Source: Cyanobium sp. NS01 (GTDB taxonomy: Bacteria > Cyanobacteriota > Cyanobacteriia > PCC-6307 > Cyanobiaceae). From it: a DNA stretch of 64,000 nucleotides. Positions 14,879-21,884 of this stretch are shown in pieces. The stretch spans positions 1,798,001 through 1,862,000 of the forward strand of contig NZ_CP047940.1 in NCBI RefSeq assembly GCF_014280235.1, written 5' to 3'. The translations under genes and the position numbers were made by a program. How positions within the stretch are numbered: position 1 is the first letter of the stretch; every line of letters begins with the position of its first letter. Under the pieces are notes generated by a model. That model saw only the letters and a list, made by a program, of their open reading frames with translations, was not told the DNA's origin and ran no database searches.

Positions 14879-17047
14879 TCAGCGCATGAACAGCATCTCC
14901 TGGTAGGTGGGCAGCGGCCAGGCGTCATCGTCGATGAGCTGCTCGAGACCATCGGCGGCGGCGCGGATCTTGAGCATCACCGGCAGCACCCCATCGGCAC
15001 AGTGGCGCAGGTGGGCATGAATGCCGTCGGGATGCACCGCCATGGCCTCCTCCAGGGCCGTGCAGCCTTCCAGCAATTGCCCGCCCAAGGACTCCATCGT
15101 CTTGAGCATGGAGGTGTCGGGGGACAGGCCCACCTTCTCCTGGCTCTTGATCGAGAAGGCCATCTTGCCCAGGCTGTCCGACACCGCCGGATAGATCTGG
15201 GTGCGGGCCAGGCGCAGCAGCAGGCGGGCCTCCACCTCGATCGCCTGCACGTACTGCTCGGCGTAGACCTCGAAGCGGCTTTCGAGCTCCAGCGGCGAGA
15301 GCACGCCCTGGCGCTCGAACAGGGCCGTCACGTCAGGCCGCTCCAGCACCGGCAGGGCGTCGGCGGAGGTGGGCAGGTTCTCGAGTCCACGCTCCTCCAC
15401 GGCGATGCGGTGCCATTCGGAGGAATAGCCATCCCCCCCGAACACCACATCACCGTGCTGGTTCATGACGTCCTTCATCACCGCCAGGGCCGCCTCATCG
15501 AGGCTGCTGCCGGCGGCCATGGCAGCCTCCAGCTGGTCGTTCAACCACTCGAGGGAATCGGCCAGGATCGTGTTCAATACCACCAGCGGACCAGCCACCG
15601 ACTGGCCGGAGCCAACAGCCCTGAACTCGAAACGGTTGCCGGTGAAGGCGAAGGGTGAGGTGCGGTTGCGGTCGCCGGGATCCTTGTTGAGCTCGGGCAG
15701 GGTGTCGATGCCAAGGGACATCAGCGCCGCCTGGGCCGAACCCTGCAGGCTGCCGGAGCGGATCTGCTGGAACACATCCTCCAGCTGACTGCCCAGATAC
15801 ACCGAGATGATCGCCGGCGGCGCCTCGTTAGCCCCGAGGCGATGGTCGTTGCTGGCGGTGGCGATGGCGGCCCGCATCAGCGGACCGAACAGGTGCACGC
15901 CACGGATCACGGCGGAGCAGAACAGCAGAAACTGCAGGTTCTCGTGGGGCGTGGAACCCGGATCGAGCAGATTGCCCTGGGTGGGGTTGCCGATCGACCA
16001 GTTGACGTGCTTACCGCTGCCGTTGACGCCGGCGAAGGGCTTCTCGTGCAGCAGGCAGCTGAAGCCATGCCTCTTGGCCGTGCTCTTGAGCACGGTCATG
16101 GTGAGCTGCTGGTGGTCGGTGGCCACGTTGGCGGCCTCGAAGTAGGGCGCCAGCTCGAACTGACCCGGGGCCACCTCGTTGTGGCGGGTCTTGGCGGGAA
16201 TGCCGAGGCGATACATCTGCCGCTCGACGTCCTGCATGAACACCTGCACCCGTTCGGGGATCGCACCGAAGTAGTGGTCATCGAACTGCTGGCCCTTGGC
16301 CGGAGGGGCTCCCACCAGGGTGCGACCGGCGAGCTGCAGATCGGGCCGCAGGGCGGTGAAGGCCGAATCCACCAGGAAGTACTCCTGCTCAGCACCGCAG
16401 CTGGAGTTCACCGTGGCGATTTCGGTTTCACCCAGCAGCTTCAGCAGGCGCTGGGCCTGCTTGTTCATCGCCTTGTTGGAGCGGAGCAGAGGGGTTTTCT
16501 TGTCGAGGGCCTCGCCGGTCCAGGACACGAACACCGTGGGGATGCAGAGGGTGACCCCATTGGGGGTCTCCATCAGATAGGCCGGACTGGTCACATCCCA
16601 GGCGGTGTAGCCGCGGGCCTCAAAGGTGGAGCGGATACCGCCGTTGGGGAAGGACGAGCCGTCAGGTTCCCCCTGAACCAGCACCTTGCCACTGAATTCG
16701 GTGAAGGCTGAACCATCCCCCTGGGCCGAGATGAAGCCGTCGTGCTTCTCCGCGGTGAGGTTGGTGAGCGGGTAGAAGACGTGGGCGTAGTACAGGGCAC
16801 CTCGGCTTGTGGCCCAGTCCTTCATGGCCTGGGCGACCACATCGGCCACGGAGGTATCGAGCTTGCTGCCTTCGCGGATGCAGCGCTGGATCGATTTGAA
16901 GACGTTCTTCGGCAGCGCCGACTTCATCTTCTCGAGCGTGAACACATCGCTGGCCCACAGCTCTTCAAGCGAGGTGGCGGGCGTGGTGGGCACCAGGGGC
17001 CGCGCCAGGATCGTGTCGATGGCGTGGAGCCGCGGGTTTGAAGGCAT
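14879..17047 (-). CDS. glnN: Glutamine synthetase type III
   Basis: ATP-dependent glutamate-ammonia ligase of 722 residues, the usual GSIII length (dodecameric GlnN, unlike the ~470-residue GlnA). GSIII markers are the N-terminal [78 protein letters not shown] and the [21 protein letters not shown] block. In cyanobacteria GlnN is typically induced on nitrogen loss. The start [13 protein letters not shown] at 17047 is chosen because upstream sequence is Arg/Gly-rich and non-homologous. I found no clear GTA-N8-TAC NtcA box upstream. Two TGGGGAAAA motifs lie about 180-210 bases upstream. Confidence 0.96.
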
Positions 17048-17531
17048 AGTCCGAAAATGGGCTGTGGGGTAGCCAAGCCCGCCGACCATCCCCCCCAATG
17101 GCGCGATTGATACAACTCGTCGAAGTGCTTCTGGACCGACGCGGTGGAGCGATGACCAGAAGGCCGCTGGGCCGCTGCGACCGATCACCATTGCTGAGCA
17201 ATCAACTTTTCCGCCGCTCCTGTGGTTTTTCCCCACTGGCACGCGGGGTTTTCCCCAGCCGTCACGGCGGGCAACCGGCCCAGCGGCGCCGGCGTGGCCA
17301 ATCTCCGTGGAAAAGCGGTTCTCCCGTTGACGGCCCGGGGCTGAGGCCTGACGGCCTCGGGGCAAGCCGGCAGCAACTCCCCAGGCAGCCCCATCCCCAC
17401 TCACTTCTCAGCGTGCGTCTTGGCGGGATGGGGCCCTGAGCCGCGGCTTTGACGCCGGCCACTCGCCATGGCCTGATGGGGTCGAAGCGCGACTGATCCC
17501 CTTGAGCGACACCCCGTTGAGCCGCAGCCCG
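17048..17531. other. Intergenic region between divergent glnN and DUF2811 genes
   Basis: About 480 bases with no believable gene. It must hold the promoters for glnN (minus strand) and the DUF2811/DoxX/sigma/arsenosugar row (plus strand). The only repeated pattern I see is the phased TTTTCCCCA pair at 17227-17257, annotated separately. Confidence 0.6.
17227..17257 (-). repeat. Tandem phased TGGGGAAAA repeats, glnN upstream copy
   Basis: TTTTCCCCA at 17227-17235 and 17249-17257 are TGGGGAAAA on the glnN strand, 22 bases apart, exactly the step seen at the left edge of the window. The copy nearer 17257 continues as GGGGAAAACCCC. The pair sits 180-210 bases upstream of the glnN start. Confidence 0.65.
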
Positions 17532-17783
17532 ATGAGCGCCATCCCCAACCATGCCCCGGCCACCGTGTCGATCGAGAACCAGTTCCCCGAAGACCTGTTC
17601 GAGGCGATGGGCGAGTTCGTGCGCACCCATCCCCAGTGGGACCAGTACCGGCTGATGCAAGCCGCCCTGGCAGGGTTCCTGTTCCAGCAGGGCTGCCAGG
17701 ATCGGGCCGTGGTGCGTCACTATCTCGACGGACTGTTCCAGCGGGAGAACACCTCCGGCAAGCCGGGATCGGCCCCAGCCTGA
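17532..17783 (+). CDS. DUF2811 domain protein
   Basis: Small soluble protein of 83 residues from the ATG at 17532. The core IENQFPEDLFEAMGEFVRTHPQWDQYRLMQAALAGFLFQQG matches a cyanobacteria-specific DUF2811 family in which the same FPE-LY-M--F---HP-WDQ-R pattern is kept. Function is unknown. It is first in a same-strand row with DoxX, an ECF sigma factor, an anti-sigma factor and the arsenosugar genes. Confidence 0.8.
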   Translation: MSAIPNHAPATVSIENQFPEDLFEAMGEFVRTHPQWDQYRLMQAALAGFLFQQGCQDRAVVRHYLDGLFQRENTSGKPGSAPA

Positions 17784-17802
17784 ACAACCTGCCTGCCCAG
17801 CC

Positions 17803-18186
17803 ATGACCCGTTCGTTTTCCTGGTGGGCCGCCCTGGGGCGCACCCTGCTCTGCCTGGTGTTCCTGCAATCCCTGCTGGGCAAGATGGGGGGCTTCGGGGC
17901 GGTGGCAGCCCAGATGCAGCAGCGGGGGCTGCCCATCCCAGCAGTGGTGCTGGCGGTGTCGATGGCCCTGATGGCCGTGGGCTCGGTCCTGGTGATCAGC
18001 GGCTGGCGTCAGCGCCTGGGGGCTGCCCTGTTGCTGGTGTTCCTCGTGCCCGCCACCCTGGTGTTCCACACCGCCCTGGAGGATCCCCAGGAACGGATCC
18101 AGCTGTTCAAGAATCTGGCCATCATGGGCGGCCTGCTGCTGGTGATTGATCGGGAGGCCCCATCCGATCGGCCCGTTCGCAGGTAG
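17803..18186 (+). CDS. DoxX-family membrane protein
   Basis: Four-helix membrane protein of 127 residues with the DoxX outline: an N-terminal GRTLLCLVFLQSLLGKM helix, two central helices and a C-terminal LFKNLAIMGGLLLVIDR helix, which is diagnostic for the family. DoxX proteins take part in thiol or quinone-linked redox homeostasis in other bacteria; the role here is unknown. It lies 19 bases after DUF2811 and 32 bases before the sigma factor gene, which suggests membership of the ECF regulon. Confidence 0.85.
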   Translation: MTRSFSWWAALGRTLLCLVFLQSLLGKMGGFGAVAAQMQQRGLPIPAVVLAVSMALMAVGSVLVISGWRQRLGAALLLVFLVPATLVFHTALEDPQERIQLFKNLAIMGGLLLVIDREAPSDRPVRR

Positions 18187-18218
18187 AGGCTCCAGATCTG
18201 CTCCCTGCCAAGACGGCC

Positions 18219-18875
18219 ATGGCGCCCCCGCACCCCCGATCTGCCCAGGGAACAACTGGCGCCTTGAAGCAGCCAGCTGCGCTGCACGCCGGCGCAGCCG
18301 ACGCGCCGGACCTGGAGATCGACCACGGTGATCTGGCGTCGCTCTATGACGCCTACAGCCCGGCGGTCTACCGCCTGGCCCTGAGGCTCTGCCGCAGCAG
18401 CCACGCCGCCGAAGACCTGGTGCACGATGTGTTCCTGCGCTTCTGGCGGCAGGGCAGCTATGACCCCAGCCGGGGGCCCGTGCTGGCCTATCTGCTGCTG
18501 CTCACCCGCTCGATGGCTCTGAACAAGCTGTCCCAGCAGCGCAACCGCTGGCAGATCCTGCAGCAGTGGTCCCACCAACTGCTGGGCCACGAGCCCCCCA
18601 GCACCCAGCGCTGGGCCGAACTCACCGACCTGGGCGAGCGCATGGCCCTGGCCCTGGGTCAGATCGATCCCAAGCAGCGGCAGGTGCTGGAACTCGCCTA
18701 CTACCAGGGCCTGAGCCAGTCCGCGGTGGCGGAGCGGCTGCAGATCCCCCTGGGCACGGTGAAGACCCGCTCCCGCCAGGGCCTGCTGGCCCTGCGGCGC
18801 CACATGGTCGATTTCCAGGCCGGTCCTGGCCCCGTCGGCCAGCCCAGTACCCCTTCTCCCTCCCCGCGCCGCTGA
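18219..18875 (+). CDS. ECF-type RNA polymerase sigma factor
   Basis: Sigma-70 family protein of 218 residues with regions 2 and 4 only. Region 2 reads LYDAYSPAVYRLALRLCRSSHAAEDLVHDVFLRFWRQ; region 4 reads IDPKQRQVLELAYYQGLSQSAVAERLQIPLGTVKTRSRQGLLALR. It resembles the SigK/RskA-regulated class of ECF factors. Its stop overlaps the start of the anti-sigma gene (TGATG), typical translational coupling. The first ~40 residues are a poorly conserved leader, so a later start is possible. Confidence 0.92.
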   Translation: MAPPHPRSAQGTTGALKQPAALHAGAADAPDLEIDHGDLASLYDAYSPAVYRLALRLCRSSHAAEDLVHDVFLRFWRQGSYDPSRGPVLAYLLLLTRSMALNKLSQQRNRWQILQQWSHQLLGHEPPSTQRWAELTDLGERMALALGQIDPKQRQVLELAYYQGLSQSAVAERLQIPLGTVKTRSRQGLLALRRHMVDFQAGPGPVGQPSTPSPSPRR

Positions 18876-19606
18876 TGTCCGCACCCGATCTGACACCACC
18901 GACCGGCAGCGCTCTCGATGAACTGCTGGCCGGCCACGCCCTTGGCGATCTCGATGAGACCGAGCAGGCGGAACTGCAGCGCCACCTGGCCGCCGACCCG
19001 AGTCTGCAGGTGCGTCTCGACGAGCTCACCACCACCCTGCAGCTGTTGCCCCTGGCCCTGCCGAACCAGGAGCTTCCGCCGGCGCGGCTGCGGCGGCGCC
19101 TGCTCAAACCGGCTGCCCCCGCCCCGGCCCGGCCCGCGGCCACAGCTCCCCCCCGCTGGGCGGGAGTGGCCATGGCCGCCATGGCCGGCGCTCTGGTGCT
19201 GATGGGCGTGCAGGTGCAGCAGCTGCGCCACCAGCTGGCCGAACGGCCGCCGGCCGCCGGCGCCGCGGGGGATCCCCTGCCCGTGAGCCGCACCATGGCC
19301 CTCAAGGGCATGACCCCCAGCGGTGCCGTGAGCGGCCAGGTGGTGGTGCAGGCCGACCAGGGCTACAACCTGCTGCGGCTCAAGGGCCTGCCAGCGCCTC
19401 CGCCCCAGCACGCCTACCGTCTCTGGGCCGAGGTGGACGGCCGGCAGGTGGGCTGCGTGCAGTTCGTGCCGGACCTGGCCGGCACCGTGGCGATGCCGAT
19501 TCCAACCGAGCCCTCCAGCAGCGCCAGCAAGCTGAGCATCAGCCTCGAACCCCTGCGCCCGGGGGGGGATCAGCCCCGGGGTCCCCGCGTTCTCACCAGC
19601 GTCTGA
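18875..19606 (+). CDS. RskA-like membrane anti-sigma factor
   Basis: Protein of 243 residues. Residues ~12-50 (LDELLAGHALGDLDETEQAELQRHL) are an anti-sigma domain without the HxxxCxxC zinc motif. Then come a Pro/Ala linker and one membrane helix (about 91-107, WAGVAMAAMAGALVLMG). The extracytoplasmic C-terminal domain (QHAYRLWAEVDGRQVGCVQFVPD) is RskA-type. It should sequester the partner sigma factor at the membrane until a signal, perhaps redox or proteolysis, releases it. Its stop codon directly abuts the arsS start (TGA-ATG). Confidence 0.88.
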   Translation: MSAPDLTPPTGSALDELLAGHALGDLDETEQAELQRHLAADPSLQVRLDELTTTLQLLPLALPNQELPPARLRRRLLKPAAPAPARPAATAPPRWAGVAMAAMAGALVLMGVQVQQLRHQLAERPPAAGAAGDPLPVSRTMALKGMTPSGAVSGQVVVQADQGYNLLRLKGLPAPPPQHAYRLWAEVDGRQVGCVQFVPDLAGTVAMPIPTEPSSSASKLSISLEPLRPGGDQPRGPRVLTSV

Positions 19607-20614
19607 ATGTCCAGCGCATCCCTCAGCACCAGCCGCAGCAGCCAGCCCAGCGCCGGCAGCAACGGCGTAGCGGCAGAGCCCCCGGGCTTTCCAGCCCTGC
19701 GGCGCCAGGCCCTCAGTTGCCTCCAGGTGAACCTGGGCTACCGCTGCAACCAGAGTTGCAGCCACTGCCACGTGGGCGCGAGCCCGACCCGCACCGAGAG
19801 CATGGACGCCGCCACCGCGGCCCTGATCCCCCAGGTGCTGAAGGCCAGGGGTCTGGGCAGCCTGGATCTCACCGGCGGCGCCCCGGAGCTGCATCCGCTG
19901 TTTCGCCAGCTGGTGCGGCAGGCGCGCCAGCTGGGGGTGACGGTGATCGACCGCTGCAACCTCACCATCCTCAGCGAACCCGGCCAGGAGGACCTGGCGG
20001 CCTTCCTGGCCGACCAGGAGGTGGTGGTGGTGGCCTCCCTACCCTGTTACTCCGCCGACAACGTGGATCGTCAGCGCGGCGATGGCGTGTTCGAGCGCAG
20101 TATTGCCGGCCTGCAGCAGCTCCAGGCCCTGGGCTACGGCGAGCAGGGCTCAGGCCTGGTGCTGAACCTCGTGTACAACCCCCAGGGGGCCGCCCTGCCG
20201 CCGCCCCAGCAGCAGCTGGAGGCGCAATACAAGCAGGTGCTGGAGCGCGACTTCGGCCTCCGCTTCAACCAGCTGTTCGCCCTGGCCAACATGCCGATCC
20301 AGCGCTTCGCGGCAGTGCTCAAGGCCAGCGGCCAGCTGGAGAGCTACCTCGAGCTGCTGCGCTCCAGCCATCGCGACGCCAACCTGGATGGCGTGATGTG
20401 CCGCTCGCTGATCAGCGTCGACTGGCAGGGGCAGTTGTTCGACTGTGACTTCAACCAGATGCTCGACCTGCCTGCTGGCGGCAGTGACAGGCCCAGGCTC
20501 CACCTGAGGGATCTGCTGCGGCTGGATCCCAGGCACCAGCCGATCGCCGTGGGCGAGCATTGCTTCGGCTGCACTGCCGGCAGTGGCTCCAGCTGCAGCG
20601 GCTCCCTGGCCTGA
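19607..20614 (+). CDS. arsS: Arsenosugar biosynthesis radical SAM protein ArsS
   Basis: Radical SAM enzyme of 335 residues that attaches the 5'-deoxyadenosyl group to dimethylarsenite on the way to arsenosugars. The 4Fe-4S motif is Cys47-x3-Cys51-x2-Cys54 (CNQSCSHC), followed by the DLTGGAPELHP signature of ArsS. The C-terminal DUF3641-type region has Cys in CDFNQML and CFGCTAGSGSSC. It begins directly at the anti-sigma stop and precedes arsM by 26 bases, so all are probably one transcript. Confidence 0.93.
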   Translation: MSSASLSTSRSSQPSAGSNGVAAEPPGFPALRRQALSCLQVNLGYRCNQSCSHCHVGASPTRTESMDAATAALIPQVLKARGLGSLDLTGGAPELHPLFRQLVRQARQLGVTVIDRCNLTILSEPGQEDLAAFLADQEVVVVASLPCYSADNVDRQRGDGVFERSIAGLQQLQALGYGEQGSGLVLNLVYNPQGAALPPPQQQLEAQYKQVLERDFGLRFNQLFALANMPIQRFAAVLKASGQLESYLELLRSSHRDANLDGVMCRSLISVDWQGQLFDCDFNQMLDLPAGGSDRPRLHLRDLLRLDPRHQPIAVGEHCFGCTAGSGSSCSGSLA

Positions 20615-20640
20615 CGCCACCCGGACTCCTTCCTCTCCCC

Positions 20641-21750
20641 ATGACCACCACCAGTGACCGGGCCGGCTGCGACGCCGCCCAGCCCGACCAGGACCTCAGC
20701 CGCCAGGTTCAGCATTACTACGGCACGGTGCTGAGCAGCAGCGCCGACCTGCGCACCAGCGCCTGCTGCGACGCCACCGCCCTGCCGGCCGACCTGAAGC
20801 CACTGCTGGCCCGCCTCCACCCCGAGGTGCTGGCCCGCTACTACGGCTGCGGCCTGGTGATGCCCCCCCTGCTGGAGGGCGCCCGGGTGCTGGATCTGGG
20901 CTGCGGCAGCGGCCGCGACGTCTACCTGCTCTCCCAGCTCGTGGGCCCCACGGGCAGCGTGGTGGGGGTGGACATGACCGCCGAGCAGCTGGCGGTGGCC
21001 CGCGAGCACCAGGCCTTCCATGCCGAGCAGTTCGGCTTTGCCAACGTGCAGCTGCTGGAGGGGCGGATCGAGCAGCTCGACGCCCTGGGGCTGGAGCCGG
21101 GCAGCTTCGATGTGGTGGTGTCCAACTGCGTGGTGAACCTGAGCACCGACAAGCGGGCGGTGCTCAGCGGCGTGCGCCGCCTGCTGCGGCCCGGGGGAGA
21201 GTTCTATTTCGCCGATGTCTATGCCGACCGGCGCGTGCCCGAGGCACTGCGCCTCGATCCGGTGCTCTACGGCGAATGCCTCGGCGGAGCCCTCTACTGG
21301 AACGACTTCCTGCGCCTGGCCCGCCAGGCCGGCTTTGCCGACCCGCGCCTGGTGGAGGACCGTCCCCTGGCGATCACCGACCCGCAGCTGGCGGCCCGCA
21401 CCGGCGAGCTGCAGTTCTTCTCAGCCACCTACCGCCTGTTCCACTGCGACAGCCTCGAGGACGCCTGCGAGGACCATGGCCAGGCGGTGATCTATCGCGG
21501 CAGCGTGCCGGGCCAGCCCCATCGGCTGGACTTCGACAAGCACCACAGCATCGAGACCGGCCGGGTGTTCCCGGTGTGCGGCAACACCTACCGGATGCTG
21601 GCGGAGAGTCGCTTCGCTGAGCACTTCAGCTTCATCGGCGACTTCAGCCGGCACTACGGCCTGTTTCCCGGCTGCGGCGGCACGCTGCCCTTTGAGCCCG
21701 GCGGCCGGGAGCTGCCCACTGCCGGGGCGGAAGCGGGCAGCTGCTGCTGA
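20641..21750 (+). CDS. arsM: Arsenite S-adenosylmethionine methyltransferase ArsM
   Basis: Class I methyltransferase of 369 residues, of the cyanobacterial arsenosugar ArsM type. SAM motif I is VLDLGCGSGRDVYLL near residues 88-102. Arsenic-binding Cys candidates are Cys42/Cys43 (SACCDA) and the SNCVVNLSTDK motif. The C-terminal part (RVFPVCGNTYRMLAESRF and GLFPGCGG) is the extra domain of this type, ending in a CC pair. It methylates arsenite to mono- and dimethyl forms for ArsS. The ATG at 20641 opens the conserved SRQVQHYYGTVL region. Confidence 0.94.
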   Translation: MTTTSDRAGCDAAQPDQDLSRQVQHYYGTVLSSSADLRTSACCDATALPADLKPLLARLHPEVLARYYGCGLVMPPLLEGARVLDLGCGSGRDVYLLSQLVGPTGSVVGVDMTAEQLAVAREHQAFHAEQFGFANVQLLEGRIEQLDALGLEPGSFDVVVSNCVVNLSTDKRAVLSGVRRLLRPGGEFYFADVYADRRVPEALRLDPVLYGECLGGALYWNDFLRLARQAGFADPRLVEDRPLAITDPQLAARTGELQFFSATYRLFHCDSLEDACEDHGQAVIYRGSVPGQPHRLDFDKHHSIETGRVFPVCGNTYRMLAESRFAEHFSFIGDFSRHYGLFPGCGGTLPFEPGGRELPTAGAEAGSCC

Positions 21751-21812: not shown

Positions 21813-21884
21813 TGGGTCGCCTGAGATTCGAACTCAGGACCAATCGGTTAAAAGCCGAGTGCTCTACCGCTGAGCTAGCGACCC
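21813..21884 (-). tRNA. trnK: tRNA-Lys (UUU)
   Basis: Read on the minus strand the 72-base gene folds as a full cloverleaf. The acceptor stem is GGGTCGC/GCGACCC, the D arm GCTC-AGCGGTA-GAGC, the anticodon loop CTTTTAA with anticodon TTT, and the T arm CCTGAGTTCGAATCTCAGG. CCA is not encoded. It lies alone between arsM and the carbonic anhydrase gene. Confidence 0.97.

Follow-up and report, generated by a model that had tools for sequence, protein, structure and literature searches.

Arsenic-processing genes have been described in operons controlled by ArsR, such as arsBHC of Synechocystis (PMC4010505) and arsQML of Burkholderia gladioli (PMC8552651), and the available text on Synechocystis indicates that ArsR apparently controls only five genes there. 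Under the conditions of the Synechocystis study, and in its strains, neither arsenite nor arsenate induced arsM, in contrast to an earlier report that it cites (PMC4010505). The initial reactions of arsenosugar synthesis are attributed to ArsS together with ArsM (Xue et al. 2019 as cited in PMC8552651), and the accessible part of the citing paper does not mention sigma-factor control for this pathway in Synechocystis PCC 6803. Here we analyse a 64,000-nucleotide stretch of Cyanobium sp. NS01 (contig NZ_CP047940.1, positions 1,798,001 to 1,862,000; below, the window), in which genes for the same two enzymes, by family, directly follow genes for an extracytoplasmic function (ECF) sigma factor and an RskA-type anti-sigma factor. 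Like the ArsR-controlled operons, this one contains arsenic-processing genes; unlike them, it has no ArsR gene in or beside it, the nearest of four HTH_5 matches in the genome being about 75 kb away, and it carries an ECF-type motif instead, with the exporter gene acr3 lying elsewhere and lacking that motif. The analysis supplies candidates for the regulator, its promoter sequence, the co-regulated genes and the sensor residue, and these make the control of arsS and arsM directly testable in culturable freshwater picocyanobacteria.

The pair resembles the SigK/RskA-type ECF systems in several respects: the sigma factor finds its best solved relative in SigK, the anti-sigma factor has an RskA_C domain and one long membrane-type helix, the two genes overlap, and a motif precedes the sigma gene. 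SigK promoters have a CCATCC-like -35 element. Unlike in those systems, the predicted targets here are arsenosugar, methionine-sulfoxide-repair, bufferin-like and DM13 genes, and an invariant cysteine is present in the C-terminal domain of the anti-sigma factor. A second likeness is to ECF16/DUF1109 (NrsF) systems such as BcrS/AbcS. According to the available text on these, a cysteine exposed to the periplasm on the membrane anti-sigma factor is the likely signal detector, methionine sulfoxide reductase (Msr) genes are under their control, and one of them is induced by hypochlorous acid (HOCl) (PMC8315932). By analogy the present pair would work like these systems without being a member, as its anti-sigma factor belongs to another family (PF10099 only, with no DUF1109 match) and the ECF16 systems, as far as that text goes, come without arsenic genes (PMC8315932). 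It is possibly related to the SigI-type cyanobacterial sigma factors, on which the accessible part of a 2009 review notes little information (PMC2758279). A literature search, which left subscription papers mostly uncovered and so does not imply absence from print, returned no case of ECF control of arsenosugar genes.

We propose that the pair transcribes itself, arsS and arsM from a promoter at 18159-18186, together with unlinked envelope redox and soft-metal genes, and we consider this proposal likely. Control of arsS and arsM by the sigma factor is its firmest part and very probable, whereas sensing of a redox or soft-metal signal by the pair seems to us evenly balanced.

The six genes of the locus (Table 1) lie on one strand, and open reading frame (ORF) and profile checks place them where an earlier note, made from the sequence alone, had placed them, with the same families. 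Its reading of the junctions is likewise exact: the stop codon of the sigma gene overlaps the start codon of the anti-sigma gene by a single base (TGATG), and the ATG of arsS comes immediately after the anti-sigma stop codon (TGA-ATG). In the profile search the sigma factor matches Sigma70_r2 and Sigma70_r4 and has no match to the region 3 family, as in group 4 (ECF) sigma factors, and PF10099, scoring above its cut-off, is the only family matched by the anti-sigma factor, which makes it RskA-type. ArsM falls below the curated NCBIfam cut-offs for ArsM (168 of 263 bits for PRK11873, 134 of 500 for NF040538 and 88 of 400 for NF038099), although its nearest families are all arsenite methyltransferases. 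The earlier note regarded an internal promoter and terminator separating arsS and arsM from the pair as fatal to their coupling. Neither a sigma-70-like promoter nor a terminator-like site appears between 17000 and 22100 in a scan that is blind to ECF promoters, and a matrix scan for the ECF motif described below finds none directly before arsS or arsM.

To place the locus among its relatives we used profile and sequence searches of 201 genomes of the family. The sigma query matches 54 of these at E <= 0.001 and the anti-sigma query matches 46. Below, close loci are the 44 sigma loci with E <= 5e-63, which come from 42 genomes and count the window among them; neighbourhoods were fetched for the other 43. 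Upstream of the 44 sigma genes we find a shared two-part element, CMATCCGATC-N12-GGTA. A matrix of 28 columns, derived from 37 sites that share the core ATCC[GA]A-N14-GGTA, reaches at least 18 bits ahead of the sigma gene in 42 of the 44 loci (37 of these sites trained the matrix), the pattern of an autoregulated ECF operon. Across 61 sequences the matrix finds 93 sites of at least 16 bits; the reversed matrix finds none, letter-shuffled sequence yields one, and 20 column-permuted matrices find 0.15 on average and never more than 1. The site in the window is the only one there reaching 14 bits; it ends with the doxX stop codon, 32 bp upstream of the sigma ATG. No motif precedes DUF2811 (best score -6.7) or DoxX (best -3.2). 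Because the sole site lies at the doxX end, with none before DUF2811, DoxX, arsS or arsM, the likely unit is sigma–anti-sigma–arsS–arsM, from which the motif likely separates DUF2811 and DoxX. Co-occurrence of the motif with this sigma factor argues that the sigma uses it. Among 20 cyanobacterial sigma loci outside the close set (L255-L274), a 16.8-bit site precedes sigma in L257 and sites of 9-14 bits are seen in L258 and L273.

The gene order is conserved beyond chance, since sigma, anti-sigma and arsS are consecutive in 20 of the 44 close loci with flanks that differ between loci; the distance to the arsS match ranges from an overlap to less than 100 bp. The arrangement that the earlier note drew from a single locus thus recurs in relatives. 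The arsS-adjacent loci cluster on the sigma tree (which omits L138, L139, L140, L141, L142 and L143; an earlier tree omitted L140 and L143). A single origin of the adjacency is compatible with the tree test, one clade not being rejected (p-AU 0.124), although at least two changes are required. In-frame TGA codons in relatives' sigma genes proved to be an artefact on reading the plus-strand loci: the TGA simply ends the gene, and the match extends beyond it owing to the longer tail of the window's sigma. Two loci depart from the usual arrangement. In G182 a C-terminal anti-sigma remnant precedes arsS (L143) and a complete sigma/anti-sigma pair is present on another contig (L105), so that the ars-linked copy of the pair seems to be decaying. 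In L137 (G132:C47) a recognisable anti-sigma gene lies upstream, not downstream, of sigma, which suggests a rearrangement.

Evidence from outside the matrix training set comes from a genus, g6, in which the sigma gene lies apart from arsS. The motif precedes arsS in six of the seven sigma-bearing g6 genomes (19.7-28.1 bits), 106-112 bp ahead of where the arsS profile match begins, versus none of three sigma-less g6 genomes (G062, G163 and G187), a contrast with a one-sided chance of 0.033 across these ten genomes. Nor does it precede arsS in any of 18 genomes without the close sigma, or in any of 13 in a further such set that includes the three g6 genomes just named. In three of the sigma-bearing g6 genomes (G198, G175 and G090) the motif is also found before a VTT-MerA–arsM pair. 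The claim in the earlier note that arsenic genes are tied to a membrane-linked sigma factor is supported for arsS and arsM, by adjacency and by these g6 sites; the inclusion of DUF2811 and DoxX in the unit is not supported. A separate feature of the g6 pair is a ChrR-type cupin gene beside it in all seven sigma-bearing loci (L126, L127, L129, L130, L131, L134 and L137), a hint of singlet-oxygen-type signals.

Other genes with the motif, in the complete 2.75-Mb genome of the window (Table 1) and in relatives, point to the wider regulon. Sites outside the training set are those before arsS in g6, the GT2-GTC-DUF547 operon, DM13, MsrA in relatives, DUF4079 and DUF2282. In relatives the motif precedes DM13 in at least 23 loci, a DUF547 operon in at least five, and MsrA in four; it is found before an operon of MsrA, cytochrome b561 and molybdopterin oxidoreductase in L203, before MsrA also in G099 and G072, before DUF4079 in G030 and before an LMWP-family gene in G037. 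DUF2282 occurs in two of 32 genomes searched, and all three copies have a site (18.1, 26.5 and 13.1 bits; G083 has two copies). Bufferins are SigF targets in Caulobacter. Among loci L255-L274, DipZ and MsrP-like genes lie nearby in four, one of which also has MsrA, and DM13 is near two others. Taken together, the motif-bearing genes have the look of a regulon for envelope redox and soft metals into which arsenosugar synthesis has been drawn, and from the gene neighbours and the targets in relatives we infer that methionine-sulfoxide repair may be the older role and arsenosugar synthesis the later addition. As to the Msr genes that ECF16 systems control, MsrA has sites in relatives, and the site at the own MsrA reaches only 8.3 bits. 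The own acr3 locus and two of the four ArsR-type loci were scanned and have no motif site.

The fusion of a VTT (TVP38-like) membrane domain with a MerA-like flavoprotein (L128:9186-11363; G000:C1:2207179-2209359 in the genome of the window) is common beside arsS and is possibly a membrane-bound arsenical reductase. Fusions with 77-85% identity are found in the genome of the window, G099, G072, G155, G140 and G195, and same-genus genomes that lack the sigma (G121, G168 and G192) have relatives of only <=44% identity with partial query cover. Best upstream scores in five relatives range from 3.2 to 18.4 bits.

The predicted model of the anti-sigma factor (mean pLDDT 80.5, pTM 0.48) has helices at 11-61, a long helix at 95-123 and strands at 139-242, a predicted RskA architecture of helical N-terminal domain, single transmembrane helix and beta C-terminal domain. 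Cys194, in the C-terminal beta domain, is the sole conserved cysteine and is present in 40 of 40 family anti-sigma factors, and Met207 is conserved in 38 of the 40; this alignment omits proteins of <=200 amino acids and L138-L141, and a further alignment (A2) holds 29 sequences from plus-strand loci. We regard Cys194 as the candidate sensor. Arsenite chelation usually takes two or three thiols; a lone conserved one would be better suited to oxidation or to binding Cu(I). A sequence search found no solved relative of the anti-sigma factor, and the best fold match, to a loop-deleted human Cu,Zn superoxide dismutase (E 0.0029, TM 0.33 by query), is too weak to use. On the signal, the redox half of the guess in the earlier note gains indirect backing from the other motif-bearing genes and the invariant cysteine, and methylated-arsenic sensing finds no support.

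Most likely, then, the pair is an autoregulated RskA-type ECF system with an operon and a regulon that include arsenosugar synthesis, and a membrane-sensed stress switch, rather than the usual arsenic sensor, probably activates the arsenosugar genes. What the pair senses, and what the coupling is for, we infer as follows. By family analogy the anti-sigma factor would keep the sigma factor at the membrane until a periplasmic oxidant or soft metal(loid) acts on Cys194, perhaps with Met207. The freed sigma would then initiate transcription at CMATCCGATC-N12-GGTA. In the genome of the window the predicted output comprises the sigma and anti-sigma factors, ArsS, ArsM, the GT2-GTC-DUF547 operon, DM13, DUF4079-glycosyltransferase and the bufferin-like operon, with the VTT-MerA-like fusion and MsrA as probable additions, and arsenosugar synthesis would thus form one branch of the response to envelope stress. 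A stronger form of this proposal joins ArsS, ArsM, methionine-sulfoxide repair, DM13, DUF4079, copper-type bufferins and glycosyltransferases in one ECF regulon, and takes arsenosugars to be a physiological output of the envelope redox and soft-metal stress response and not mainly an arsenic detoxification product; we offer it tentatively, as rather unlikely. If the main proposal is right, oxidants or copper would affect arsenic methylation and the output of arsenosugars, which pass into aquatic food webs, no less than arsenic does.

Several observations weigh against the proposal. ArsS scores above its curated cut-off in 171 of the 201 genomes, most of them without this sigma (at E <= 0.001 the count is 182, a non-specific figure since 14 of 14 control genomes also matched, and 171 is used instead). 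The 37 training sites were picked by their core pattern and hence are not independent evidence, and two close sigma loci score low (L101, -2.3; L103, 10.3). The sigma-bearing g6 genome G005 has no motif before arsS; outside g6 it is likewise missing from all seven genomes that have the sigma and an arsS apart from it, from G045 and from the second copy of arsS in G195 (L149 and L150). Because sites are found in g6 and not in these, arsS would belong to the regulon in some lineages, that of the window among them, and not in all. The sites before the VTT-MerA fusion and MsrA in the genome of the window are weak, and outside the family Cys194 is kept in five of nine anti-sigma factors and missing in four. 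Pattern scans of the own genome gave six matches versus three for a backwards control, and 11 versus four in a second scan. In a looser scan of 40 chosen genomes, with totals summed from among the matches listed, 20 sigma-bearing genomes gave 174 versus 44 and 20 genomes without the close sigma gave 89 versus 30. Since the latter also exceed the control, GATC-rich sequence bias contributes, and raw counts are weak evidence; the claim rests on matrix scores and conserved positions.

The likeliest alternative is that the sigma is an arsenic regulator, its anti-sigma factor sensing arsenite or methylated arsenic and arsS and arsM being the main and purposeful targets. The presence of both genes in the operon fits, as do the motif-bearing LMWP-family gene of G037 and the VTT-MerA-like fusion, which lies downstream in 15 of the 17 other stretches where arsS adjoins the pair and in several directly between arsS and arsM; the GT2 of the co-regulated operon also matches TIGR04283, a model of an arsenosugar-associated glycosyltransferase, at 30 of 182 bits, far under the cut-off. 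However, in 24 of the 44 close loci the pair has no arsS beside it and instead neighbours DM13, DUF4079, DipZ, MsrA or MsrP-like genes, and the single conserved thiol and the lack of a site at acr3 also tell against it, so that we find it improbable. Alternatively, arsS and arsM may simply have come to lie downstream of the pair, possibly receiving some weak read-through but transcribed mainly from another promoter, the coupling being functionless. This would account for the wide occurrence of arsS without this sigma, for the separated copies outside g6 that lack the motif and for the two or more changes on the sigma tree, but not readily for adjacency amid differing flanks, for the motif present in trans before arsS in g6 or for the missing sigma-70-like promoter, and we give it little credence. 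A functional role for DUF2811 and DoxX within the operon, with DoxX acting in membrane thiol or copper redox, is equally doubtful despite their shared strand and close spacing in the window, their kept order in all three sets with DoxX (the window, G099 and G072) and a weak DoxX match to HvfX, a maturation protein of copper peptides of the RiPP class (20.5 bits, cut-off 80), as they precede the pair in just these three of 44 loci, with wider gaps between them in G099 and G072, and the sigma motif lies at the doxX 3' end with none before either gene in the window (G099 has a 12.3-bit site before DUF2811); they are rejected as conserved members on these counts and are probably bystanders.

Table 1. 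Genes and promoter-like motif of the locus (window positions), followed by motif sites elsewhere in the genome of the window (genome positions; G000 is this genome)
Feature	Position	Strand	Family, score or remark
DUF2811 gene	17532..17783	+	PF10929; upstream neighbour, probably outside the regulated unit
DoxX gene	17803..18186	+	PF07681; upstream neighbour; sigma promoter motif overlaps its 3' end
ECF promoter-like motif (CCCATCCGATC-N12-GGTA)	18159..18186	+	31.5 bits; likely autoregulated promoter of sigma–anti-sigma–arsS–arsM
ECF sigma factor	18219..18875	+	Sigma70_r2 + Sigma70_r4; best solved relative SigK (4nqw)
RskA-type anti-sigma factor, invariant Cys194	18875..19606	+	PF10099 RskA_C 48.9 bits, cut-off 29.4
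arsS, arsenosugar radical SAM enzyme	19607..20614	+	TIGR04167 445 bits, cut-off 300
arsM, arsenite methyltransferase-like	20641..21750	+	PRK11873 168 bits (cut-off 263); Pfam methyltransferase domains
GT2-GTC-DUF547 operon	1024125	-	24.5 bits; same operon has a site in G099 (24.5) and G072 (25.0)
Unsure target, DUF819 gene downstream	G000:C1:1145271 (L342:5271-5298)	-	20.5 bits
Bufferin-like operon DUF2282-MbnB/TglH/ChrH-DUF2063	site 2188917; operon region G000:C1 ~2188915-2191031 (L341:1916-4032)		18.1 bits
DUF4079-glycosyltransferase			16.8 bits, 35 bp before start; DUF4079 diverges from the 1145271 site
DM13	339691		16.7 bits
VTT-MerA fusion, weak site			10.0 bits, ~21 bp before start
MsrA, weak own site			8.3 bits

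The operon is flanked on its 3' side by a tRNA-Lys gene on the opposite strand (21813-21884), and a choloylglycine-hydrolase family gene (PF02275; 24223-25347, plus strand) lies further downstream. Upstream, a long ORF on the minus strand (14879-17404) resembles a type III glutamine synthetase, as recognised by eye.

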